From: a virus
Direction: 5' to 3' (one strand)
Virus record (IMG/VR): IMGVR_UViG_3300034009_000003
Coordinates: 1-34,605 of that record
DNA: 34,605 nt
Shown here one piece after another: positions 753-33,260 of this stretch; within the stretch, counting starts at the first letter, position 1, and each line of letters opens with the position of its first letter. Made by a program: the position numbers and the translations under genes. The notes beneath the pieces were generated by a model, which searched no databases, was not told where the DNA came from, and worked only from the letters and a program-made list of their open reading frames with translations.

Positions 753-938
753 ATGCGGTTCATCGTGATCGCAGGCGTCCGGTACGAGTGGAAGGAGATC
801 AGGCGACTCAGACGCGAACAGATAAACGCCGCTCGCAAACGCCAGCTTGCGCTCTTTGACGACCTACCGAATGACAGCCGACCGGCCAGCCAACACACGG
901 CGCGTGGCCGCTATGAGGAGCCAATGCTCTTCACGTAA
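753..938 (+). CDS. Hypothetical small basic protein
   Basis: A 61-residue protein with a hydrophobic start (MRFIVIAGVRYEW) and a basic helix (KEIRRLRREQINAARKRQ). GGAG at 742-745, inside the end of the previous gene, sits 7 nt before the ATG and can serve as ribosome site. It is the last gene before the intrinsic terminator at 950-981, so it closes the small left-hand operon. I recognise no family. Confidence 0.5.
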   Translation: MRFIVIAGVRYEWKEIRRLRREQINAARKRQLALFDDLPNDSRPASQHTARGRYEEPMLFT

Positions 939-4863: not shown

Positions 4864-6830
4864 CTAAAAGACGGGGATCGCTTCTGCTCTCAAAAACCCT
4901 ACGCGACAAGCTGGTAGCGCAAGCTCTCACCGAGATACCCTTTGCCCGTGCCTACAAGCAGAAGAAGGTGGCCCGGTGGCAGGCGAATGAGAGCCTCCTA
5001 TACGGCGAGAAGCCGAAGAGCACCGACTCCCGAGCCAACATCGACCTACAGCGTGCCGAGGAGTTCGTAGACACCTACCTCTCCAAGATTGACAGCCCGC
5101 TCCGCTTCAAATTCGGCAAGCGGAAGGAGAGCCAGTTCAAGCGCGTCCGACGCCTCAACGCCCTTCGCGAGCGTGACGCGGACCTCGACTACTGGGACCT
5201 CAAGGACCTCGCGGGCAAGAAGCAGAACCTCATCTACGGCCGCGCGATCTACTGCTACTACGCCGATAGCGTGGAGGGGTACTATCGTTCTCACCTTGAG
5301 AACGTGGACGTCTATGACTTCCTCATCGATCCGTCCGCCGGCGGCCTCGACATGGAGCGCGGCAAGTACATGGGCCGCTACGGCGTCGTGAAGGACCGCT
5401 ACGACCTCAAAGGGAGCGACATCTACATCAAGGCCGAGGTGCGCCGTCTCGTCGAGGGCGAGAGCAGCAATTCCAATGAGCTGAGCCAGGAGGAAACCAA
5501 CAAGAAGAACCGCCGCCAAGCGGTGGAGACGCTTACCGAGCCGCAGATCCCGGACAAGGACAAATTCAAGTTCTGGGAGTGGTACACGACCTTCGAGGGC
5601 GAGCGCTATTACCTCCTTCTGCAGGAGCAGAGTGGCATCGCGATCCGCGCTGAGAAGCTGACCGACATCTTCCCCGAAACCAAGCAGTTCCCGCAGGGTG
5701 CGTGGCCGTTCTGGAGCTACGCCAAGTCGCCCGACCTCACCGAGTTCTGGACCAAAAGCCGGCTCGATCAGGTGCGCGAGATTTTCATGACGCAGAACGT
5801 CAACGTGAACCAGATGGTGGACAACGTTGAGGAGTACAACAAGCCGATGAAGGTGGTGAACGTGAGCAACATCAAGAACCTCGCGGAGCTCAAGTACCGC
5901 AAAGGCGGCCACATCAAATCCACCGGCTCTATGGACGTTGCCAAGGACCTTCAGGTGCTCCGTCCGTCCGCGATCGACACACCGATCCAGCTCTTCAATC
6001 TCCTCGAGACTATCCACGAGAAGGCGTCCGGCCTCACTGCTGGCTCGAAGGGCGCCGAGGACTCGGACGGCAAGGTAGGCATCTACGAGGGCAACCAGGA
6101 GAACGCGGCTGACCGCTTCGGCCTCACAAACAAGACCTACTCCTTCGGCACAAAGCGCTTCGCGCAGCTGTACGAGATGGGCGTGCGCCAGCACCTCACC
6201 AAGAAGGTTGGCGTGGACATCCTGGGACCGGAGGGCATTGAGACGGAGACCATCAGCAAGCGCGACATCTTCCGCAAGGACGACGAGTTCAGCGTCATCG
6301 TGGAAGCGTCAGACGCCGAGGAGCGCGCATCTGTGATCGAGCAGCGGAATAAGCTCACCTTCCTGTCGCAGAACGCAATGAACCCCGTGCAGAACCAGAA
6401 GAAGGCATACGAGCTGGGCGGGCGCGTCGTCGGCTTCAAGGACGAGGAGATCAAGGAGCTGCTGGACACATCCGAGTTCGGCAACGCGGAGATTTTGAGC
6501 GAGGCCGCGCGCGACATCGAGGACATTTTAGACGGCAAGCCGGTGAAGCCCAACCGCGCTGCGAACACCGCCTACAAACAGAAGTTCGTGGACTACATGG
6601 CGGATCACGAGGAGGACATGCAGCACGAGCAGTTCACCGCGCTCGCAAACTACATCGTTTCGTGTGAGCCGTTCATCATGGCGAATGCCGCACGTGCCCT
6701 TACCGCCGCCACGACCATGACACTCACATCACCACCAACCGGCACAACACCAGTGCCAACACGGGACGGGGCCGTGACATTACCAACCCCTGAATCAAAT
6801 GGAGCAGAAATTCCAGTACAAGGTCAGTAA
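4803..6830 (+). CDS. Portal protein
   Basis: A 675-residue protein, the size expected of podovirus portals (P22-like portals are about 700). It follows the large terminase and precedes the scaffold and coat genes. The body from KTLRDKLVAQALTEIPFARAYKQKK onwards is alpha-helical and charged, with the long helical C-terminal part seen in portals (ASDAEERASVIEQRNKLTFLSQ…KKAYELGGRVVGFKDEEIKELL). Portals form the dodecameric DNA channel to which the terminase docks. The start is uncertain. TTG 4803 and GTG 4809 are the only usual starts and overlap the upstream gene, while a CTG near 4885 behind an ACGGGGA stretch would fit the conserved body better. A long antisense open frame inside this gene is a shadow. 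Confidence 0.8.
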   Translation: MRVRLLQTSRSRATRPGYPIAKRRGSLLLSKTLRDKLVAQALTEIPFARAYKQKKVARWQANESLLYGEKPKSTDSRANIDLQRAEEFVDTYLSKIDSPLRFKFGKRKESQFKRVRRLNALRERDADLDYWDLKDLAGKKQNLIYGRAIYCYYADSVEGYYRSHLENVDVYDFLIDPSAGGLDMERGKYMGRYGVVKDRYDLKGSDIYIKAEVRRLVEGESSNSNELSQEETNKKNRRQAVETLTEPQIPDKDKFKFWEWYTTFEGERYYLLLQEQSGIAIRAEKLTDIFPETKQFPQGAWPFWSYAKSPDLTEFWTKSRLDQVREIFMTQNVNVNQMVDNVEEYNKPMKVVNVSNIKNLAELKYRKGGHIKSTGSMDVAKDLQVLRPSAIDTPIQLFNLLETIHEKASGLTAGSKGAEDSDGKVGIYEGNQENAADRFGLTNKTYSFGTKRFAQLYEMGVRQHLTKKVGVDILGPEGIETETISKRDIFRKDDEFSVIVEASDAEERASVIEQRNKLTFLSQNAMNPVQNQKKAYELGGRVVGFKDEEIKELLDTSEFGNAEILSEAARDIEDILDGKPVKPNRAANTAYKQKFVDYMADHEEDMQHEQFTALANYIVSCEPFIMANAARALTAATTMTLTSPPTGTTPVPTRDGAVTLPTPESNGAEIPVQGQ

Positions 6831-23275: not shown

Positions 23276-23483
23276 GGCTGCCTCTCCGCGCACCTCCCCC
23301 AAGAGAAGGGGACGAAACGGTCAAGTTTCAAGACCAACCCAGCACGATTTTTCAACTTCGTTCCAAACGCCCGGTTATCCGGTGTTCGCATGCGTTGGCT
23401 GCAGGCGACTTGTAACCTCGCCAGTTATCCACACACGAGGCATTTCATTCGCGCTTCACGCCGGTGTACGCTACAATGGTATG
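23276..23483. promoter_or_regulatory. Intergenic region with DnaA box and promoter for small RNA
   Basis: No gene is seen. TTATCCACA, a perfect DnaA box, lies at 23425-23433. TACAAT at 23472-23477 is a -10 whose predicted start (about 23484) coincides with the first base of the structured RNA that follows. No good -35 is present. The minus-strand gene's ribosome site (GGAGAGG) lies at about 23281-23287. Confidence 0.5.
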
Positions 23484-24211: not shown

Positions 24212-24426
24212 GCCGCGACTTCCCTATTTGCTTTTGATCTGGTTGTTCTGTTCCCTGAGGCGGGAGGCTATCGCCATCCCTTTTTCTACGGACAGCCCGC
24301 CGGAGTATCGAACACCGCCTGCTTCGCGGCGGCGTCACGATACCCGTCTGGCTGTCCGTTACCCTTGTCCGTGTGACACGGACATTCGGGCGGGCCAGTG
24401 CCAGACGCAAATAGGGAAGTCGCGGC
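24212..24426. repeat. Long inverted repeat enclosing nested palindromes
   Basis: A perfect 20-bp inverted repeat: GCCGCGACTTCCCTATTTGC at 24212-24231 and its reverse complement at 24407-24426, enclosing 175 bp. Inside are a 10-bp inverted repeat (ACGGACAGCC 24288-24297 with 24350-24359), a nested hairpin within it, and a near-palindrome at 24367-24383 (GTCCGTGTGACACGGAC). A small CGGCT-TATC-AGCCG hairpin precedes it. I see no target-site duplication, so a mobile element is not supported. It is a candidate replication origin or structured RNA. Confidence 0.6.
24288..24359. repeat. Nested hairpin, copy 1
   Basis: An outer 10-bp stem (24288-24297 with 24350-24359) encloses GTATCG (24305-24310) paired with CGATAC (24338-24343), then an internal loop AACA/CGTCA, then CCGCC (24315-24319) paired with GGCGG (24328-24332). 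It shares the opening GGACAGCCCG and the CGTCA internal loop with copy 2 at 24879-24938. Confidence 0.6.
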
Positions 24427-24486: not shown

Positions 24487-24541
24487 CTATCCACAGTCCT
24501 ACCGATTGCGCGATTGCGCAGCGCCACGCATGTGAGACGAT
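24487..24541 (+). promoter_or_regulatory. DnaA box, operator-like site and weak -10 before zinc-cluster gene
   Basis: CTATCCACA (24487-24495, one mismatch to the DnaA box) is followed after 12 nt by GCGCGATTGCGC (24508-24519), then by TGAGACGAT (24533-24541), a weak extended -10. The order box, operator, -10 is the same as at 26890-26935. The operator covers the expected -35 position, so a bound protein would block the promoter. Confidence 0.5.
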
Positions 24542-24794
24542 GGCCGTAATGCCACCTTGTAAGGACTGCCACCATGCGGGCTTGGATCACAACTGGACAA
24601 TCCCACCATGCCCGGTATGCCGCGAGGTGAAGGAGAAGAAGGCGACTTGCGCCAACTGCCTGAAGAATGGCGAATTAGGACGCATACGAGGCCGCTGTAC
24701 CGTTTGCAGATGCCGGAAGTACCGACCGGACGTCGACCTACCGAAACCTCTCAATCACATCATTGGAAGGATCAGGGGATACAAGCGGAAGTGA
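24540..24794 (+). CDS. Small multi-CxxC zinc-cluster protein
   Basis: An 84-residue basic protein with four CxxC knuckles: C7/C10, C24/C27, C37/C40 and C53/C56 (plus C58), with HH at 11-12. The spacing suggests two zinc sites. The tail is basic (RIRGYKRK). The open frame continues upstream to 24006, but that part lies over the inverted-repeat region and lacks coding character. ATG 24540 or ATG 24549 are the likely starts; the latter would be nearly leaderless from the promoter above. It may be a nucleic-acid-binding regulator or anti-host factor; no family is recognised. An intrinsic terminator follows at 24839. Confidence 0.6.
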   Translation: MAVMPPCKDCHHAGLDHNWTIPPCPVCREVKEKKATCANCLKNGELGRIRGRCTVCRCRKYRPDVDLPKPLNHIIGRIRGYKRK

Positions 24795-24863: not shown

Positions 24864-24878
24864 GCTATTGGACAGCCC

Positions 24879-24938
24879 GGCTATCGGAGCACCTATTGAA
24901 CACGCCTTCGGCGCGTCACAATAGGCGTCACGATAGCC
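24879..24938. repeat. Nested hairpin, copy 2
   Basis: A fully nested three-stem structure. GGCTATCG (24879-24886) pairs with CGATAGCC (24931-24938), CCTATTG (24892-24898) with CAATAGG (24919-24925), and CGCC (24903-24906) with GGCG (24910-24913). The two internal loops are GAGCA/CGTCA and AACA/CGTCA. All stems are perfect. It could be an REP-type palindrome or a structured RNA module. It lies just upstream of the promoter for the HerA-like gene. Confidence 0.65.
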
Positions 24939-24955
24939 GTTGCGTTCGGTTCCCG

Positions 24956-25079: not shown

Positions 25080-25826
25080 ATGAACTTTCTCGTCATTGGT
25101 TTAGGTGAAAAGCCCGAGCTGCTGGACACCAAGCCAGGCTTCCTTTTGATAGATGATGGACCGCTTGCCGACCAGTTTCTGAAGGCGTTTCCGCGGGCGA
25201 AGGTGTTTGATCCGGCCGTTCACAGCTTCAATCCGCTCAAGGGCATCGAGTACAAGGGCGCTCGCCAGTTTGCCGAGACCGTCTACGGCTCGGAAGGCAA
25301 GGACACTCTCACCGTCAGGAACGGCAAGCGATCCCTCACACGCCTGGTTCTCCAGACCCCGCGCCTCGATCAGGTGAAGCGCTCTTTGGCCGACGAAGAA
25401 TCCTTGGCGATGATCGATGATCTGTTGCTCTCGCCCGTCCTCTCCCGCGTCCTGTGCCAGCCCACCAACTTCTCGTTCAAGGCGGGAAGATCCATCGTCG
25501 CGAAGATCGACAGGGCGGAGCTCGGGGAGTTTGACTCCTTCATCATCGCCTCGCTCCTGGTCCGCCAGTACGGCGGTCAGATCATCATTCCGGACTTTGG
25601 CTTCTATGCGCGCCCGTTCCATGCCTCTCTAATCCGGGAACGGCGCCTAATGGCCGGAGTGCACACCCTCTCAGAACTCGAGCCCCGCATCCGCGACATG
25701 TGCCTCCTCATGGACAAGGCCGGGCACCGTTGCACGTTCGAGGACGCCGATACCCTCGCGAAGTACGCCGGCATCATGCCCGGCACCAATGCCTACGGAG
25801 CGTTCACCCAGAGCGCGATGGAGTAG
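25080..25826 (+). CDS. HerA/VirD4-like protein lacking a P-loop
   Basis: A 248-residue protein. The segment FDPAVHSFNPLKGIEYKGARQFAETVYG (about residues 42-69) carries the SFNPL signature of the HerA/VirD4/TraG ATPase superfamily. The C-terminal part follows the usual order: a helix (SFIIASLLVRQYGG), a strand at the Walker B position reading IIIPDFGFY instead of hhhhDE, then LIRERRLMAGVHTLSELEPRIRDMCLLMDKAGHRCTFEDADTLAKYAG, which parallels the sensor/arginine region. No GxxGxGKT is present, and the N-terminus starts directly with LLIDDGPLADQF. It is about half family length. It may be a degenerate, non-hydrolysing relative acting as an assembly or inhibitory factor. Homology is judged by eye only. 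Confidence 0.45.
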   Translation: MNFLVIGLGEKPELLDTKPGFLLIDDGPLADQFLKAFPRAKVFDPAVHSFNPLKGIEYKGARQFAETVYGSEGKDTLTVRNGKRSLTRLVLQTPRLDQVKRSLADEESLAMIDDLLLSPVLSRVLCQPTNFSFKAGRSIVAKIDRAELGEFDSFIIASLLVRQYGGQIIIPDFGFYARPFHASLIRERRLMAGVHTLSELEPRIRDMCLLMDKAGHRCTFEDADTLAKYAGIMPGTNAYGAFTQSAME

Positions 25827-25938: not shown

Positions 25939-26739
25939 ATGGTTTCGCGGACCGACTTTGAGAGCGGCATGGAGCGTCAAATTCAGATGCTCTTCAATGA
26001 GGTGCGGACGCTCGAAAGGCGCCATGAGGAATTGCGGACGGAGCTTCTCCGCTATTCAGACCAGCTATTTACCGCCCAGTGGCAAGCGAAGATCGGAGTA
26101 GACCCCGAGCGGGTAAAGGCGAGACAAATTATCCCTGTGCGAGTATACGTCTCCGACGACGACACTTCGGAAAGTACTAGGGCACTTGCAAGTCGCGCGG
26201 GATTACTATTCGGTGGAATCGCTGACATGCTGTACGAATTGGATTTCGAAACATTTCTGGTCCATCCCGACGAAGACGGCTCATTGATTTCTCGTGCGTT
26301 TGCCTGGACCTCCAAACTCGTACGCTCGAAAGAGGCAAAGGATGTTGGTGGGCTGATAATGGACTCAGCCAAAGCTCGCTTTCACAGTCTGCCTGAAGCA
26401 GAAGCGGCGGACAAACTAGCCGATGCAGTTCAGAAAACGATGGCTGGGATGAAAGAGTATGACCACGTTCTAGCACAGGTGGGGCCCGTTCGAATCGCGG
26501 CCACGCGGCTTCCCGACGGGTCGAAGGCGGCTGTGATCCGGACCATGACGCCTGAAGCGCTCCAGAAGTTTGAGGAAGAACAGGCGGATTTCAAACCGGC
26601 AAAAGAGCTCATCGATGCCGAGTTTGGTCTGACCTACGCGGACCCGGCGCTCTTAACAGGCCCAAAGATCGAGGTGGACCTCGACGCTATAGAAGCGCCA
26701 CCTAAGAAGGACCCGTTCTCAGAAGACGAAAGTTTCTAG
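25939..26739 (+). CDS. Conserved hypothetical with N-terminal coiled coil
   Basis: A 266-residue protein. Residues about 8-45 form a coiled coil (ERQIQMLFNEVRTLERRHEELRTELLRYSD). A domain follows with IIPVRVYVSDDDTSESTRALASRAGLLFGGIADMLYELDFETFLVHPDEDGS, and the C-terminal part has VGPVRIAATRLPDGSKAAVIRTMTPEALQKFEEEQ. I recall bacterial proteins with the same succession (VRVYxxDD…GF…GS, then VRTLTPEELRxLE) of unknown function, some near defence or signalling genes. ATG 25939 is preferred over an in-frame start at 25789 that would overlap the previous gene. The 3' end overlaps the antisense RHH-like gene by 21 nt. Confidence 0.55.
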   Translation: MVSRTDFESGMERQIQMLFNEVRTLERRHEELRTELLRYSDQLFTAQWQAKIGVDPERVKARQIIPVRVYVSDDDTSESTRALASRAGLLFGGIADMLYELDFETFLVHPDEDGSLISRAFAWTSKLVRSKEAKDVGGLIMDSAKARFHSLPEAEAADKLADAVQKTMAGMKEYDHVLAQVGPVRIAATRLPDGSKAAVIRTMTPEALQKFEEEQADFKPAKELIDAEFGLTYADPALLTGPKIEVDLDAIEAPPKKDPFSEDESF

Positions 26740-26850
26740 GGCGCGGCGCACCACTTCGGCATCGCTCACTTTCAGCTTACGTCCAGCTCGCTTGATAATG
26801 AGCCTGTGGCGTTTGTAGACGCGCGGGCTTATGACGGCGGGTTTCTCCAT
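26719..26850 (-). CDS. 43-residue ribbon-helix-helix-like repressor candidate
   Basis: A 43-codon ORF reading as a short strand (KPAVI), helix A (SPRVYKRHRLIIKRAGRKL), turn (KVS) and helix B (DAEVVRRALETF), the layout of Arc/CopG-type ribbon-helix-helix repressors, including the typical SxxEVVRRALE second helix. It is as short as the smallest known members. An extended -10, TGTTATAGT (26859-26867, minus strand), lies just upstream and would give a nearly leaderless mRNA. The operator-like GCGCGATTGCGC copy at 26869-26880 sits directly behind the -10. It is convergent with and overlaps the end of the 25939 gene by 21 nt. The gene is inferred from fold pattern and context only. Confidence 0.55.
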   Translation of the reverse strand: MEKPAVISPRVYKRHRLIIKRAGRKLKVSDAEVVRRALETFVF

Positions 26851-26858
26851 ATGCGAGA

Positions 26859-26935
26859 ACTATAACATGCGCGATTGCGCTGCACGTAGTTATCCACATA
26901 CCACGGCTTGCGCGATTGCGCGGGCATGAGAGAAT
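26859..26935. promoter_or_regulatory. Divergent control region: two operator-like sites, DnaA box, two promoters
   Basis: In order: minus-strand extended -10 (TGTTATAGT, 26859-26867); site O1 GCGCGATTGCGC (26869-26880); perfect DnaA box TTATCCACA (26890-26898); site O2 GCGCGATTGCGC (26910-26921); plus-strand extended -10 TGAGAGAAT (26927-26935). O1 and O2 are identical, in the same orientation and 41 bp apart (about four helical turns). Each covers the spacer/-35 area of its promoter. The third copy is at 24508-24519. A separate TTGACA at 26950-26955 has only a poor -10 partner. Confidence 0.6.
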
Positions 26936-26974
26936 GACTGTGTAGCTCTTTGACAACTTCATAGGCACTAATTA

Positions 26975-27023
26975 GCACGCGCCTTTTAGCCGCCGCCGAA
27001 ACACCCGCGTGCGACGGCGGCTA
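26975..27023 (+). promoter_or_regulatory. Interleaved stems in the early-operon leader (pseudoknot or switch)
   Basis: GCACGCG (26975-26981) pairs with CGCGTGC (27006-27012). TAGCCGCCG (26987-26995) pairs with CGGCGGCTA (27015-27023). The order A, B, A', B' is that of an H-type pseudoknot, or of two competing hairpins. Both stems are perfect. The structure ends 24 nt before the first early gene's ATG, and a GAGGG stretch follows it. Confidence 0.6.
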
Positions 27024-27047
27024 GAGGGATCACTAACAACATCAACT

Positions 27048-27221
27048 ATGCCTTACACCAAACGAGACAGGCTCACGGGCGGCATGACGATCAGCGTCCG
27101 CGCCTATAAGATGTGGAAGAAGGGTCACGTACTCACTGACTGGTTCATCACGCATGTCACTCAATGGACCGCGCTCGCAGTCGTCGGTATGAGCACCGGA
27201 ATGACGAAGGTATATGCCTAG
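27048..27221 (+). CDS. Hypothetical small early protein
   Basis: A 57-residue basic protein, first of the early operon. YTKRDRLTGGMTISVRAYKMWKKGH could be a beta-hairpin with basic residues, followed by a hydrophobic stretch (WTALAVVGMSTGM). No family is recognised. The ATG is preceded by T and no Shine-Dalgarno sequence, as in most phage genes here. The last codons overlap the next small ORF. Confidence 0.5.
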   Translation: MPYTKRDRLTGGMTISVRAYKMWKKGHVLTDWFITHVTQWTALAVVGMSTGMTKVYA

Positions 27222-27354
27222 CGTCCTCTGCCCTTTCCACTCACCAAACACTCTATTCGCAAACTGCCCGCGTTGCATGGCATCGATCGGGCGCAAAGCA
27301 AAAACCTATGACCATCAACGATCGCATGGAAAAGATCACGCGGCTCGCTTCTGA
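27214..27354 (+). CDS. Small putative zinc-binding protein
   Basis: A 46-residue ORF starting at ATG 27214, inside the end of the previous gene. It contains CPFHSPNTLFANCPRC, a C-x2-H-x8-C-x2-C arrangement fitting one zinc site. It overlaps the following gene by 47 nt, which weakens the call. It fills what would otherwise be an 86-nt gap in a compact operon. Confidence 0.35.
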   Translation: MPSVLCPFHSPNTLFANCPRCMASIGRKAKTYDHQRSHGKDHAARF

Positions 27355-27460
27355 ACTCGAAGCGCTGCTCAATGACCTGCCTTCAATCATTGACCAAATC
27401 AAACAACTAGCTAACGTACAGACCGCATATGCTCAAAGCACAACCACCGAAACCGAGTAG
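27308..27460 (+). CDS. Small helical early protein
   Basis: A 50-residue acidic protein with one long helix (DRMEKITRLASELEALLNDLPSIIDQIKQLANVQ), probably a coiled coil. It has a T before the ATG (CCTATG) and its 3' end overlaps the next gene by 32 nt. No family is recognised. Confidence 0.5.
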   Translation: MTINDRMEKITRLASELEALLNDLPSIIDQIKQLANVQTAYAQSTTTETE

Positions 27461-27644
27461 ATGGGAAGCCAAGCTCAACGGCGGCGAAGATAAGATACAC
27501 GGCTACGACGACGGCGAGTTCATGGGTGAACCCCGTGAAGCCTACGTAGGCATGGCCGACCGTTACCTGAGTGGCGATCCCGAGATCGACAAGCTCAATG
27601 AACCTGAAATAGCAGAATTACTTGCAGAACATAACCTCTTCTAA
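27429..27644 (+). CDS. Hypothetical early protein
   Basis: A 71-residue acidic protein, N-terminal part polar and probably disordered (KPSRWEAKLNGGEDKIHGYDDGEF), C-terminus helical (DPEIDKLNEPEIAELLAEHNLF). It starts within the previous gene (CATATG) and ends 4 nt before the SSB-like gene. The function is unknown. Confidence 0.5.
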   Translation: MLKAQPPKPSRWEAKLNGGEDKIHGYDDGEFMGEPREAYVGMADRYLSGDPEIDKLNEPEIAELLAEHNLF

Positions 27645-27648
27645 CCAT

Positions 27649-28257
27649 ATGGCACTTACAGCACCCAAATCGAACAAGAACTACGAACCAGTACCCGCAG
27701 GGAACCACGTCGCTCGGCTCTACCAAATCGTCCACCTCGGCACGATCAAGGGCGAGTACAAGGGCAAGCCGACGGAGAGCGATAAAGTCCGGCTCACCTT
27801 CGAGCTGTGCAACGAGAAGAAGGCGTTCAATGAGGGCGAGGAGCCGCGGCCGTTCTCAATCTCGCGCGAGTTCTCGTTCTACATGTCGCCAAAGGCAAAT
27901 CTCCGCGCATTTGTCGAGGGGATGATCGGCACGAAGCTCCACGACGAGGAGGCGTACAACTTCGACCTTGAGCAGCTCCTCGGAGACGCCTGCCTGCTCA
28001 ACGTTGTGCATGTCGAGAAGGAGAGCGGCACGTACGCCAACATCCAGACGGCAACCCCGCTCCCGAAGGGCATGGACGCCCCGGCACTCGCGAACGAAAA
28101 GAAGCTCATCGACGTGAACACGGCGACGGACACCGAGATCGACGCCCTGCCGGACTTCATCAAGGACAAAATGAAGAGTTCGGTCGAGTGGGCGAACCGT
28201 ATCCCAAGCGTGAACGACAGCGGCATCCCGATGAATCCTAATGATCTGCCCTTCTAG
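27649..28257 (+). CDS. SSB-like phage replication protein
   Basis: A 202-residue protein with a beta-rich core (EPVPAGNHVARLYQIVHLGTIKGEYKGKPTESDKVRLTFELCNE, then REFSFYMSPKANLRAFVEGMIG and LLGDACLLNVVHVEKESGTYANIQTATPLPKG), a pattern I recall from phage proteins encoded with recombination genes. The last residues, NDLPF, mimic the DDIPF tip by which bacterial SSB recruits partner proteins, and the preceding tail is flexible and polar. It is therefore a likely single-strand DNA-binding protein. It starts 4 nt after the previous stop (TAA-CCAT-ATG). A close functional partner is the NinB-like gene downstream. Confidence 0.6.
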   Translation: MALTAPKSNKNYEPVPAGNHVARLYQIVHLGTIKGEYKGKPTESDKVRLTFELCNEKKAFNEGEEPRPFSISREFSFYMSPKANLRAFVEGMIGTKLHDEEAYNFDLEQLLGDACLLNVVHVEKESGTYANIQTATPLPKGMDAPALANEKKLIDVNTATDTEIDALPDFIKDKMKSSVEWANRIPSVNDSGIPMNPNDLPF

Positions 28258-28260
28258 CTT

Positions 28261-28671
28261 ATGACGTACTCATACACGTTGCTCGTCACCGACGATGACG
28301 GCAACTCGGTTGTCGACCACGAGCTCACACCGGATCAGGCTGTTACGATCCTTGTACGTGCACTCGCTGAAGCGCAGTTCGAGCGCGAAGCGCCGGAGAC
28401 CGTCAAGCCTGTAAACGAGAAGCCTAAGAAAAAGCGGAAGCAGCGCACATGCAGCGTTTGCGGCAAGCCGGGACACATCGCAAAGACGTGCCCTGGAGAT
28501 GAAACGAGCAAGAGCGATCCGCTCACCGAGGAGGGGTTCGCGACGCTGAAGGGCGTGCAGCTGGCGCCGGAGTTCCACTCCAAAGACTTTGCGCAGGCGC
28601 ACGGCGTGAGCGTGGCGGAGGTGAACCGAGCGGCGCTGTCGGGGTCGTACGACGAATACCGCAACTTCTGA
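28261..28671 (+). CDS. CCHC zinc-knuckle protein
   Basis: A 136-residue protein. The N-terminal 40 residues form a small domain (YSYTLLVTDDDGNSVVDHELTPDQAV). A basic linker (KPKKKRKQR) leads to a retroviral-type zinc knuckle C64-x2-C67-x4-H72-x4-C77 (CSVCGKPGHIAKTC). The C-terminal part (FHSKDFAQAHGVSVAEVNRAALSGSYDEYRNF) looks like a helix-turn-helix. Zinc knuckles bind single-stranded nucleic acid, consistent with a replication or recombination role beside the SSB-like and NinB-like genes. It starts 3 nt after the SSB-like stop (TAG-CTT-ATG). Confidence 0.7.
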   Translation: MTYSYTLLVTDDDGNSVVDHELTPDQAVTILVRALAEAQFEREAPETVKPVNEKPKKKRKQRTCSVCGKPGHIAKTCPGDETSKSDPLTEEGFATLKGVQLAPEFHSKDFAQAHGVSVAEVNRAALSGSYDEYRNF

Positions 28672-28676
28672 CGAGT

Positions 28677-29111
28677 ATGTTCCACGCCACGATCAAAGGG
28701 GGGAGCATCGAGTTCGGATCACCGCCGGCCGCGCTCGCCTTCCAGGAGTGGAAAAGAGCGCACGAGGGAGAGCGGGTAGTGGTCGAGCTGGACAAGCCGA
28801 CGCGCTCGACCTCGCAGAACGCGTACTATTGGGCGTACCTCGAAATCATCGCCCGCGAGACCGGCGACAACGCCGAGGACCTCCACGAGTTTCTGAAGCG
28901 AAAGCTGCTGCCGCCGCGCTTCACGAAGGTGCGGGGGGAAGAGATCAAGCTGCCCGCCTCGACCACGAAACTCGATAAGGCGGCAATGACGGACTACCTC
29001 GAAAAGATCGCCGCGCTCACGGGCGTGCCGCTCCCGGATCCCGAGGCGGCGGGGTACATCTCCAATTACCAGTCATCAGTCAAACAACATGGAACAGACA
29101 TATCCGCGTGA
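28677..29111 (+). CDS. NinB-like recombination protein
   Basis: A 144-residue protein with the NinB (lambda Orf) pattern: SQNAYYWAYLEIIARETGDNAEDLHEFLKRKLLPPRF, then LPASTTKLDKAAMTDYLEKIAALTGVPLPDP. Lambda Orf binds single-stranded DNA and SSB and can replace RecFOR functions in phage recombination. Its place next to an SSB-like gene supports this. It starts 5 nt after the zinc-knuckle stop and its end overlaps the next gene by 23 nt. Confidence 0.75.
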   Translation: MFHATIKGGSIEFGSPPAALAFQEWKRAHEGERVVVELDKPTRSTSQNAYYWAYLEIIARETGDNAEDLHEFLKRKLLPPRFTKVRGEEIKLPASTTKLDKAAMTDYLEKIAALTGVPLPDPEAAGYISNYQSSVKQHGTDISA

Positions 29112-29331
29112 GGGCACCCAGGAGCGCCGCGTCCTCGACCGCTTGCTGGAAGCGAACGGCGGCTGGATCAAGAAGCAGGTGTTCGTGCGCGAGATGTTTC
29201 TGACGAAGGCGGGGCGCGCGATCCACACGCTTGAGAACCGGTACGGCTGGCACATTGAGCACTCGCCCTTCACGGACGAGTTTGGCTTCAAGAGCTACCG
29301 AATTGTACCAGTGGCTAGTGAAGCCACTTAG
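29089..29331 (+). CDS. Winged-helix-like small protein
   Basis: An 80-residue protein: TQERRVLDRLLEANGGWIKKQVFVREMFLTKAGRAIHTLENRYGWHIEHSPFTDEFGFKSYRIV reads as helix, helix-turn-helix and wing, as in small phage winged-helix proteins that occur near replication genes. It may bind DNA as regulator. It overlaps the NinB-like gene by 23 nt and has no clear ribosome site. Confidence 0.6.
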   Translation: MEQTYPREGTQERRVLDRLLEANGGWIKKQVFVREMFLTKAGRAIHTLENRYGWHIEHSPFTDEFGFKSYRIVPVASEAT

Positions 29332-29348
29332 GATCAGGAGACTATCCG

Positions 29349-29570
29349 ATGAGCACAGGACACGCGGCGATGAAATGGTTCTTCTGCTATCGCCTGACCT
29401 CCGGGGCGCGGCCCGGTCGATGGGTCGTGCAGGGACCATACGCGACCTACGAACGAGCGAAGGATGCGCGTCAGAAAGCGAAAGCCTGGGATGCCGAGGT
29501 CAGCGTACCCTTCCCAGCCAGCACGAAGGAAGAAGCGCAGGGTAAGTGCGATACTGACCAGATTTTCTAA
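29349..29570 (+). CDS. Hypothetical early protein
   Basis: A 73-residue protein with an aromatic N-terminal beta part (WFFCYRLTSGARPGRWVVQGPYATYERAKDARQKAKAWD). It is unusual here in having a proper Shine-Dalgarno sequence, AGGAG, 8 nt before the ATG. It is the last gene of the early operon; the minus-strand cargo genes converge from 29595. No family is recognised. Confidence 0.5.
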   Translation: MSTGHAAMKWFFCYRLTSGARPGRWVVQGPYATYERAKDARQKAKAWDAEVSVPFPASTKEEAQGKCDTDQIF

Positions 29571-29594: not shown

Positions 29595-30041
29595 TCACCA
29601 TGATATTGAAATATACGGTTTGGAGAAATCTGAGTGCGGGTATGGGAGGTCAGAAGTTATTACGGTCAATGGTTTGCGAGGATACGCACGAACTTTGAAG
29701 GGTTCTCCCAATAGTCTGGCCAACTCTGCAGCGTATAGCTGTAAGATTTCTGGGTCATCTGACACAATACAAAGGCCGTTCGCCCATCTGCCGACCTTCC
29801 CAAGCTTACTCCCGAATACTCCCCTGTATAGAACGGATTGGTGATCGTCGTCGAGTGTAAGCTGCGGGTGACCGTTGTTCTTGATGCGATATTGTATCGC
29901 CTTTTTCCACATTGGCAGGTCGCGATGCGCGATATTTTTTATCTCGATCAATGCTCTTGCGCGCGATTCTTCTCTCTGACGATCCCTTTCAGTGCTTTGC
30001 CTTCGAGCACTTTCCCGCAGCCGCTCCATATCGCCTGACAT
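29595..30041 (-). CDS. Hypothetical cargo protein
   Basis: A 148-residue protein with a charged helical N-terminus (ERLRESARRQSTERDRQREESRARALIEIKNIAHRDLPMWKKAIQYRIKNN). A mixed C-terminal domain follows (VLYRGVFGSKLGKVGRWANGLCIVSDDPEILQLYAAELARLLGEPFKVRAYPRKPLTVI). The ATG at 30041 is preferred because GGGGGGTG lies 5 nt upstream. It is encoded with the other minus-strand cargo genes but 138 nt apart from them. The function is unknown. Confidence 0.55.
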   Translation of the reverse strand: MSGDMERLRESARRQSTERDRQREESRARALIEIKNIAHRDLPMWKKAIQYRIKNNGHPQLTLDDDHQSVLYRGVFGSKLGKVGRWANGLCIVSDDPEILQLYAAELARLLGEPFKVRAYPRKPLTVITSDLPYPHSDFSKPYISISW

Positions 30042-30197
30042 TGGCACCCCCCGCTCCATGCACCGAGACGCGCGTTATCAATGGGAGCCCGTGGCCTGGA
30101 CATTGTCAAGGGAGGAACAAGGAGGGTTTTACTTCGATTCGGCACGGCTGCCCGCCAAAGTGACACGTCGCATAATGTAGCTTGTGCGGCGCGCACC

Positions 30198-30677
30198 TCA
30201 TAGCTTTCGAACGTAATGTAGAGCTGGTAGGCCAGAGTCTTTGTCGGTAACGGCCGTTGCAGTCGGAGATATTGTTGCCTCCGCTACTCGTTTGGACGGC
30301 TCATTGTCAAGGTTCACAACTGCCTCTATGTAGAAGTGAGGGATGTTGTTTCGCTTTAGTCCGTTTTCCAATTCAGCGACTGCCGCTGTGACAACATCCT
30401 TCGCGAAGCCTTTGCCGCGATAGGCAGCAGGCACGGCAACACCCAACTGAAAACATGGAAGTCCGTGCATGGGCTCGGTCATGACAACCATCGCCAGTGC
30501 TTTGACGGTTTTACGATCCAGCCTCACATAGGTGAACCGGGATACACCGGGGGCCGGCTGATCGAGATGCACGAAGAGCTCGGGGTCGAGCTCTCCGGGC
30601 AGCAAGCTGATTTCCCGGTTGCGCAGCGCTTCTTGGAAAGACACAAGGCCGTCCGTCGGGTCGGTCATTCTCGCCAT
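30198..30677 (-). CDS. GNAT-family acetyltransferase
   Basis: A 159-residue protein with the acetyl-CoA-binding motif A: LGVAVPAAYRGKGFAKDVVTAAV, with the R/Q-x-x-G-x-G/A pattern as YRGKGFA at residues 86-92. A following FYIEAVVNLDNEPSKRVAEATI segment corresponds to the GNAT substrate-side strand and the N…PS helix. It probably acetylates a protein, tRNA or small molecule. It starts 17 nt downstream of the reconstructed stop of the HEAT-repeat gene, so the two probably share a message. It could be the modifying or toxin-like partner of the cassette. Confidence 0.7.
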   Translation of the reverse strand: MARMTDPTDGLVSFQEALRNREISLLPGELDPELFVHLDQPAPGVSRFTYVRLDRKTVKALAMVVMTEPMHGLPCFQLGVAVPAAYRGKGFAKDVVTAAVAELENGLKRNNIPHFYIEAVVNLDNEPSKRVAEATISPTATAVTDKDSGLPALHYVRKL

Positions 30678-30694
30678 GTGCTACCCTACTCTCG

Positions 30695-32163
30695 CTATCC
30701 GAGTCCCGCGACCTTACCGACCGTCGCGATGATCCCGCCGAGAGCCGTCGCCGCCCCCGCCGCCTTCGAGGCGATGGCTTCGACGCTCGTAAGGGCCTTG
30801 AGAGCCGCCGCGATCTTGTTCGGCTCTGGTTGGCCTTCGCTTCCGCAACGTGCTCCAGCGCCTCCTTCTTCACGTTCCCTTCGAGCTTCATGCCGTGAAG
30901 CTCACGCTCGGCCTTCGACAGCTCCGACTGAATCTGCTCGATGGTTTGAGGATTGTAGTGGACCTGCGCCTGGCCGAAGTTCGTGGCATCGCCGCCGATG
31001 GAGACCGCCCCGCCCTGCACGCCGCCCGCGATGTTGTAGTTTGTGGTCTTGTTCACGATCATCACTCCTTTGAAGAGGTCACCTGACCCTTCGGCTTCGA
31101 TCTGCTTAAACCGGCCGAAGATGGACGTTCCCGAGGCGCTCGCCACCATCCGACGACGAAGTGCCGACCCTTCCGGCTCCCCCTCGAAGATCTGCGCGGC
31201 CATCTCCTCGTAGTTCGGGCAGTGCTGCGCTTGCTTGACCATGTGGTCGAGGACGGCGTGTCGAACGTCGGTATCGTCCTCCTTCACGAACCAGTCGAGC
31301 ACCAACGCCTCTAGGCCGTCGAAATAGGTATTCTTCAGGCCCACTGCGAGTCCCAGCCGGGCTTCCGGATCAGGGTCTCGCATCCCGAGTTCCAGAAATT
31401 CCATGTGGCGCTCGGCCTCGCGTGTTGTCATCGCGAGCAGCCGGAAGAGCCACGCGCGCACGTTCGCCGGCTTCTGCTCGATCTCGCGGATGTCGATTCC
31501 GAGGTCGCTGACGCCAAGATCAGGGTTCTCGGTGATCGCCCAAACCGAGTACTGAGAGACCACGTCGTCATCATGCCCGCCGAGCGCCTTCACCATCTCG
31601 GCATTGCTGTGTCGAGGGTTCAGGAGGTTCGCCGGTGCGCGGTCCAGCCCGACGAGCACGAGCCCGAGCCGAAGCAGGTCGGGAGATGCCTGCTCCACAT
31701 CAATGGGCAGCGACGATAAGTCGAGCTTCCCGGCGTCCACGTGCTGCAAGGCGGCCAGCGTGACCATCTGCTCATCGAAGCTGAGGCCCCGAAGGATTTC
31801 CGCTGCTTTTTTGCTCAGCCGGTATATCGCTGCAATGGCGGCAGCCGTGGTCTGGGGCTCGTCGGTGTGCCTCGAAAGCACGTCCACGATGGCCGCGACG
31901 CAAGTCGATTCCCGTCCGAGCCTCGCGAGAGCATTCAACGCCCATCGGCGAACCTTCTCGTCCGTCGCTTGATAGAGTAGGCCAATGACGTTCTGTTCGA
32001 CCCCGACGAGCAGCGGGTGCTGAATGCGGAAGCCGCTCCGGTACGCCTTGCAGATGTCTTGAAGGGCCTTCTTCGCGCGAACGGGCTCACCGGTCTCGAG
32101 CTGAGACTTCAGATATTCGACGTTGGGGGTGTCGAGGAACCGAATGTTCCGGATGATCTTCAA
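30695..32163 (-). CDS. HEAT-repeat protein with hydrophobic C-terminus; one frameshift
   Basis: About 490 residues. Residues 1-340 are helical HEAT-like repeats (for example VRRWALNALARLGRE; EARLGLAVGLKN; DVRHAVLDHMVKQ). At about 376-394 is a Gly-rich motif (NIAGGVQGGAVSIGGDATN), followed by a helical segment. The continuous frame runs to 30511 as an Arg/Ser-rich, non-protein-like tail. A shift of one base near 30824-30832 instead restores a sensible C-terminus, PNKIAAALKALTSVEAIASK and then an Ala/Gly-rich hydrophobic helix (ATALGGIIATVGKVAGLG), with stop at 30695, 17 nt before the acetyltransferase. The shift may be a mutation, a sequencing error or programmed. The start is TTG, overlapping the upstream gene by 77 nt. 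It may be a sensor or membrane-acting effector. Confidence 0.6.
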
Positions 32164-33112
32164 GATCGTGGCTCGCGTTCGCGTAAAAAATCTCCAACAC
32201 GTGTTTCGACCACGGGTCGAAATCCTCTATGTTGTTAACTGGTTGCGTAACGTCAAGCCATGCCAAATCATTCAACGCCAGCCGTCGTTTAACCGGCTCA
32301 AACCACTCGGGACATTTAAAGGCGACCACCGCTAAAAGGTCGTTCAGCCCGGCCTCTTTGCGCACCCATGTGAAGTACCGCAGAGAAGCGTGAATGTGCT
32401 CGCTGGGAGGCACGGCGGGAATGTCCAGATCGACCGTGGTCGCCCTCACGCCAGAGTCCACGATGCCGAAGTCGGCCATATTGAACAGGGTGTGCTCGTC
32501 ACGGTGGACGAGTGTAGAGAAGCCAATCGAGCGCCGGGAGACGAAGGAGTCGCGGTCCTCTCGATAGCGACCGAGGCGGTACGTCAGCACGTTCCGCCGC
32601 CGGACTACGCACACGAACGACCGAACGAACACGTTTTTAGTGCTTTTTGAGCGTGGATCGTCATACCGGAAGCAATCACGCCCGAGGAGCCCGAAAATCC
32701 GGTGCGGAGCGATCGGTGTATTCTCGTGCGCAAGCGTCCCGAGAACGTCCGCGTCGAAGGCGAGCGCGGGTCCTCTCACAAGCTCTCGGAACCGCCGCCG
32801 CGTCGGAACCGGGCGCCGAAAGTCCTCTGGTAGACTCGTGTCAGTCAAGAACTCCCGGAGGAAGAACCTCCCTGGAGCAGTTCGGAAAAACGCGCTCTGC
32901 TCACGCCGAGCAATGATGTCCTCGCTGATCCGCGCCTGAAGGGTCTTGTGCTGCGTCTGCCCATGCAGATGTGGAGGCACCATCCCCCGCCGGTATGCTG
33001 CCGCAAGAATCGCCCGTGGACTGAGAGGTCGCCGTTCTGCCCGCAGAACGGTCGCCGCAATCTCAAGATATGCGTCCACCGCGGATCCTTCTCGCCAGCG
33101 GGTCACGGCCAT
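32087..33112 (-). CDS. HARE-HTH protein with Nudix-like C-terminal domain
   Basis: A 341-residue protein. Residues about 12-88 match the HARE-HTH (HB1/ASXL/restriction endonuclease) winged-helix domain: AYLEIAATVLRAERRPLSPRAILAAAYRRGM, then KTLQARISEDI, then FFRTAPGRFFLREF. The rest has an order reminiscent of Nudix-fold domains (NVFVRSFVCVVRRRNVLTYRLGRYRED…RSIGFSTLVHRDEHTLFN…), without a canonical Nudix box. HARE-HTH domains are known from restriction enzymes and other defence proteins and are predicted to sense modified DNA. ATG 33112 is used; an in-frame TTG at 33163 is less likely. It overlaps the HEAT gene by 77 nt, so they are probably co-translated. Confidence 0.65.
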   Translation of the reverse strand: MAVTRWREGSAVDAYLEIAATVLRAERRPLSPRAILAAAYRRGMVPPHLHGQTQHKTLQARISEDIIARREQSAFFRTAPGRFFLREFLTDTSLPEDFRRPVPTRRRFRELVRGPALAFDADVLGTLAHENTPIAPHRIFGLLGRDCFRYDDPRSKSTKNVFVRSFVCVVRRRNVLTYRLGRYREDRDSFVSRRSIGFSTLVHRDEHTLFNMADFGIVDSGVRATTVDLDIPAVPPSEHIHASLRYFTWVRKEAGLNDLLAVVAFKCPEWFEPVKRRLALNDLAWLDVTQPVNNIEDFDPWSKHVLEIFYANASHDLEDHPEHSVPRHPQRRISEVSARDR

Positions 33113-33137
33113 TCTCGGCCGAGAACGCTCACGAAAC

Positions 33138-33260
33138 CTAAACGAACGGAAACCCGACAACAATTACACCAAGGAGGAGAATGCGCCAGGGGAGGTTCCG
33201 CTTCGCAGCCAACTCGGCCCCTTGACTCCGTACCGATGGTGTTCGCATTTTGTTCGCCAT
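33138..33260 (-). CDS. Possible 40-residue membrane peptide
   Basis: A 40-codon ORF upstream of and in line with the HARE-HTH gene: a basic N-terminus (MRTPSVRSQGAELAAKRN) and a C-terminal hydrophobic segment (ILLLGVIVVGFPFV). It resembles toxic or effector-like small membrane peptides. It has no clear Shine-Dalgarno sequence and overlaps the start of the plus-strand gene by 2 nt, so it may be spurious. Confidence 0.3.
   Translation of the reverse strand: MANKMRTPSVRSQGAELAAKRNLPWRILLLGVIVVGFPFV

Follow-up and report, generated by a model that had tools for sequence, protein, structure and literature searches.

CopG, a ribbon-helix-helix (RHH) protein of the pMV158 plasmid family, is quoted among the smallest repressors at 45 residues (PMC7286687), and it represses the copG-repB operon, that is, its own gene together with a replication gene (PMC6607859). 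The phage examples of RHH proteins are Arc and Mnt of P22 (PMC2629481, PMC10516654), and arc is autogenously regulated according to a reference cited in PMC2629481. We analysed a 34.6-kb linear IMG/VR record (34,605 nucleotides, hereafter the window) in which a minus-strand open reading frame (ORF) encodes a basic 43-residue protein, MEKPAVISPRVYKRHRLIIKRAGRKLKVSDAEVVRRALETFVF (26719–26850, ATG start), a candidate RHH-like repressor lying beside two of three identical 12-bp sites, GCGCGATTGCGC.

The candidate resembles CopG in being very small and basic, in having its own promoter and a replication gene as putative targets, and in a putative operator that lies over promoter elements. It differs from CopG in its arrangement, copG being in the same operon as its target whereas the 43-residue gene is divergent from its candidate target; in addition, there is no sequence match, the canonical strand is not seen in the 43-residue protein, and its helix A is about one turn longer in our own alignment. 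Arc and Mnt are likewise small phage-encoded repressors that act on a local phage region, but their target is the antirepressor gene ant, in immunity region I, rather than a replication operon, and they too have no sequence match to the protein. In phage lambda, the cI mRNA from PRM is leaderless. The locus shares with lambda cI/cro the divergent promoters, the shared repeated operators and a probably leaderless repressor mRNA, but the 43-residue protein is not HTH, its two operators are identical rather than graded, and no opposing second regulator was seen.

Genomic setting and the 43-residue protein

The window encodes TerL, portal, tail genes and an endolysin, with a DnaA domain IV protein and RusA near its left end and NinB and an NGO0469-family replication initiation protein in its right part. 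At the right end lie a tRNA-Thr and a protein that we take to be the C-terminal part of host HemY, whose best matches (58–59% identical, in long open frames) come from genomes of the class to which a Sphingomonadaceae MAG belongs. Because of these HemY-like matches and the tRNA-Thr, the window probably represents an alphaproteobacterial prophage region. We found no integrase in the window; some relatives have one, and in G002 it adjoins a tRNA-Thr with the same anticodon as that of the window. Given this lack of an integrase, one arm of the prophage is probably missing, the left arm having probably been cut off. A search for att-like repeats between the window ends returned none. Between the phage operon and the tRNA-Thr is a minus-strand cluster (29595–33163) that encodes an unknown protein and GNAT-like, HEAT-repeat and HARE-HTH proteins, and that may represent cargo or defence genes, or host DNA.

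The 43-codon minus-strand ORF is present as originally predicted. By count, its product has 12 Lys/Arg and 4 Asp/Glu residues, for a net charge near +8. The codon usage of the ORF is phage-like and coding-like, with a score of 0.054 compared with −0.36 ± 0.23 for non-genic short ORFs, 4% of which scored as high. Searches against Pfam, NCBIfam and PHROGs gave no match, RHH_1 gave none at E values up to 10, and we found no usable homologue in phages or plasmids and no confirmed one in viral contigs. Matches to the ORF among 385 genomes of one class were rejected as chance, for example one inside an ABC-ATPase ORF region.

In a single-sequence AlphaFold model (pLDDT 67), the protein has a coil at residues 1–8 followed by helices at 9–23 and 28–40; Foldseek and VIA returned no matches to this model. 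The RHH beta-strand is not seen in this model, which has coil at 1–8 and, as a monomer, cannot show an intermolecular ribbon, and Pro4 and Pro9 are unusual for an RHH N-terminal strand. Scored against a profile derived from 28 RHH domains of the same (alphaproteobacterial) class, the protein reached 7.3 bits, a value that 3 of 5,000 composition-matched shuffles equalled or exceeded, and the ORF ranked first among the 227 short ORFs in the window. The profile alignment spans residues 20–42, which take in the last residues of helix A together with helix B. The sole PDB sequence match, in this segment too, was a weak, non-significant one to the antitoxin VapB26 (5x3t; E = 0.91), which differs in having 71 residues and a toxin partner, no toxin gene being evident beside the 43-residue ORF.

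When membership of the RHH superfamily was judged by a significant match to a family model, the protein had none. The RHH layout originally described has weak support, from the predicted helix pair and a profile score above that of more than 99.9% of shuffles, with neither a family match nor a strand in the model. Because the profile and helix signals come without a significant match or strand, we call the protein RHH-like rather than proven RHH. Its RHH membership is suggestive, and the gene product, our candidate, is probably a small DNA-binding repressor.

The 12-bp sites and their promoters

GCGCGATTGCGC is near-palindromic (10/12) and occurs exactly three times in the window, each time upstream of a gene: at 26869–26880 (site 1), 26910–26921 (site 2) and 24508–24519 (site 3), the positions first reported. 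No further copies at 0 or 1 mismatch were found in the window. Sites 1 and 2 are spaced 41 bp, or about four helical turns, and so lie on the same face of the DNA.

A sigma-70 consensus scan passed no promoter at these three places, and we assigned the promoters by means of an extended −10 element and of sequence conserved among relatives. The right-arm operon (27048–29570, plus strand) includes the NGO0469-family replication initiation protein (27649–28257) and NinB (28677–29111). Its promoter (26908–26935, plus) consists of TTGCGC at 26908–26913, a 16-nt spacer and GAGAAT at 26930–26935, and aligns with TTGCAG/TTGCGG-16-GACAAT ahead of the same operon in two sister prophages, G001 (locus L109) and G016 (locus L136). 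The zinc-cluster gene (24549–24794, plus; 36% to L109, by comparison with which its start, MPPCKDC, was set) has a promoter at 24514–24541 (plus) with TTGCGC at 24514–24519, a 16-nt spacer and GACGAT at 24536–24541. In the window, TTGC[ACG]N-16-GAN[AG]AT is found solely at 24514 and 26908. A second element, CATGAGA[GC]AAT, stands upstream of the zinc-gene operon in both L109 and L136, where the −10 is related to that of the window's zinc-cluster promoter. On the minus strand, the 43-residue gene has an extended −10 (TG-T-TATAGT, 26859–26867) with the ATG 8 nt downstream, and for this reason its mRNA is probably leaderless. CATGTTATAGT is also found upstream of a 49-residue ORF in L109.

All three copies therefore touch promoter regions, though less uniformly than the original prediction, which had each copy between −10 and −35 and site 3 in the same position as the others. 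Site 1 lies directly upstream of the extended −10 of the 43-residue gene, solely between −35 and −10, and for this copy only does the description hold. In the right-arm promoter, site 2 takes in bases of both the −35 and the spacer. In the zinc-cluster promoter, the −35 falls within site 3, which is shifted 8 bp upstream when each site is measured against its own promoter.

The chance expectation for GCGCGATTGCGC is 0.013–0.03 copies per window (Markov order 1–4), and all three copies fall within the ~14% of the window left outside genes in our own gene list, which makes coincidence unlikely. We nevertheless considered that there may be no operator here, in which case the repeat would be mostly the −35 TTGCGC with a chance remainder, and the ORF would be spurious. 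In line with this, 12-mers with at least three copies are not rare when palindromy is ignored (0.98 per simulated window), TTGC is common to the −35 of the sisters' right-arm promoters, and ORFs of at least 40 residues are abundant. The idea is nonetheless improbable: identity extends across all 12 bp, site 1 does not coincide with a −35, and only 5 of 200 order-3 simulations produced a 12-mer of three or more copies and at least 10/12 palindromy, so that palindromy cuts chance to about 0.025 with promoter location not yet counted. Codon usage and the RHH profile likewise favour a real gene. The three sites are a real, well-placed operator-like set beside a probable minimal DNA-binding protein.

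GCGCGATTGCGC is known from one genome only. An exact paired-site scan of IMG/VR returned none. A degenerate paired-site scan gave 17 matches, which were rejected as mostly within ORFs or with another palindrome, and those inspected showed no recognisably similar module; an exact paired-site scan of GTDB genomes gave 13, each within an ORF of at least 70 residues and judged chance.

Other non-coding elements were seen around these promoters. Directly downstream of the right-arm promoter, within 26945–27028, is GCTCTTTGACA, which matches the boxA consensus GYTCTTTAANA, a gamma-proteobacterial one (PMC5725501), at 10 of 11 positions and is followed by a strong hairpin (z = −3.0). BoxA-like sequences also follow the homologous promoters in L109 (6467–6380, minus) and L136 (about 4836, minus), and on the basis of this recurrence in two relatives the right-arm operon may be read under Nus-factor antitermination. 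The zinc-cluster gene is flanked by two similar hairpin-forming non-coding segments (24283–24360 and 24873–24945) with the pattern GGACAGCCCG...GAACAC...CGTCACGATA, for which Rfam gave no match, and nothing credible overall. TGGTATAAT or TGGTACAAT elements stand ahead of several late genes in the window.

Related prophages and other regulators

Relatives were gathered by a TerL search (73% and 68% identity), and the sister G016 was added by a search with the protein encoded at 25080–25823. Co-conservation of the ORF and the 12-mer in related prophages had been proposed as a check on the original prediction. Both are absent from all 14 TerL relatives, the ORF is absent as well from G016 and G017, and no second carrier was found; with one positive case only, this joint absence is consistent with the two being partners. 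Both sisters share the plus-strand promoters with the window, yet have neither GCGCGATTGCGC nor the 43-residue ORF. In its place they carry small basic ORFs with GGRP segments, of 49 residues in G001 (L109, 6647–6796) and about 58 residues in G016 (L136, about 5011–5184), both on the minus strand, immediately ahead of the right-arm promoter and reading in its direction. The 49-residue ORF is weakly like a KGG motif (E = 0.066). As judged from these alignments, the combination of shared promoters and a differing small neighbour gene suggests that a regulatory module has been exchanged. The L109 sequence GCAGGTTTTCTGC, which occupies the operator position, was rejected as a counterpart operator, its symmetry not being kept in L136. 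A leader-motif scan of IMG/VR returned G001 alone.

In our reading, G016 apparently has host-like genes at both ends, and its leader operon, which has recombination-type genes, is located far from the integrase, at the other end. From this position and these genes, the regulated operon is better named a right-arm replication/recombination operon.

That the operon encodes a replication initiation family protein raises another explanation, in which the GCGCGATTGCGC copies would be part of a replication origin, serving with a DnaA box as sites for the NGO0469-family protein. Such a box does lie between the two copies 41 bp apart, and the sisters, which lack the sites, also lack the NGO0469-family protein by tblastn. 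Against an origin, the array has just two copies, the third is 2.4 kb off and exactly on another promoter, and every copy is tied to promoter elements, which leaves this explanation very unlikely. In the NGO0469 relatives (L004–L011), other genes stand in place of this module.

No other repressor was originally seen in the window, a view that overlooked a stand-alone DnaA domain IV protein (about 108–542, plus; PF08299, E = 4.6e-21), which none of eight relatives was found to encode. Perfect TTATCCACA DnaA boxes occur twice in the window, at 23425 and at 26890, the latter (26890–26898, plus) between sites 1 and 2. Near site 3, TATCCACA at 24488 is CTATCCACA-like, at a distance similar to that of the box from sites 1 and 2. 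The DnaA domain IV protein, the box and this sequence point to a possible second input at the candidate switch. In the sisters, the region upstream of the terminase genes contains a divergent gene pair, an XRE-type HTH_3 gene and a serine recombinase gene (G001, 33678–34820; G016, 31067–32194). In the window, the stretch ahead of the terminase genes is instead occupied by RusA and an unknown minus-strand ORF, with no XRE gene; a small gene common to the window (753–935) and G016 (44%) helps to place the comparison. The missing left arm of the window could hold a repressor.

These genes bear on whether GCGCGATTGCGC marks the operators of another regulator, either an XRE/HTH_3 protein from the missing left arm or the DnaA domain IV protein with its box, the 43-residue ORF then being merely regulated or unimportant. 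The XRE-type gene in both sisters, the probable loss of an arm from a window with no integrase, and the DnaA domain IV gene with its box and the similarly spaced CTATCCACA-like sequence would all fit such a regulator. We regard it as possible but on the unlikely side: the sisters have the XRE gene yet lack the 12-mer, the window has different genes where the sisters have theirs, and DnaA domain IV would be expected to recognise the box rather than the 12-mer.

Like an immunity repressor gene, the 43-residue gene is divergent from its candidate target operon, with repeated sites in both promoters. The description of its product as the phage repressor, and as a lysogeny regulator among the smallest known, is not supported, in view of the apparent left truncation of a record with no integrase, the sisters' XRE gene elsewhere and the DnaA domain IV protein. 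A reading in which the protein alone confers immunity on this prophage, being translated from a leaderless mRNA and keeping lysogeny through the three identical 12-bp operators, is doubtful.

A candidate autoregulated divergent switch

We favour, with a probability of about 0.5, a reading in which the 43-residue protein is a CopG/Arc-like autorepressor of three promoters acting via GCGCGATTGCGC. Following this logic, a dimer of the RHH-like protein would bind GCGCGATTGCGC; occupancy of site 1 would block the gene's own leaderless promoter, occupancy of site 2 the divergent right-arm promoter, with its operon for the NGO0469-family replication protein and NinB, and occupancy of site 3 the zinc-cluster gene promoter. 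The whole would be an autoregulated divergent switch acting like CopG or Arc. That the protein regulates the zinc gene and the right-arm operon as well as its own gene, as first proposed, agrees with the arrangement of the locus, with the site statistics and with the absence of both ORF and site from relatives, while RHH membership is suggestive only. What ties the protein to GCGCGATTGCGC is position alone. Folding, binding and repression are all predicted steps, and the putative outcome could be either the maintenance of lysogeny or a mere limiting of right-arm expression. The gene plausibly encodes a new small phage regulator, whose DNA binding, like any role in lysogeny, is putative.

The switch would open no new kind of mechanism, being ordinary in kind, and size is its main point of note. 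If the favoured reading is true, the protein, being shorter than the 45-residue CopG, would rank with the smallest transcriptional repressors in nature, and a minimal two-helix protein would be able to run a divergent phage switch. It would also mean that related prophages retain their promoters but swap the adjacent small regulator.
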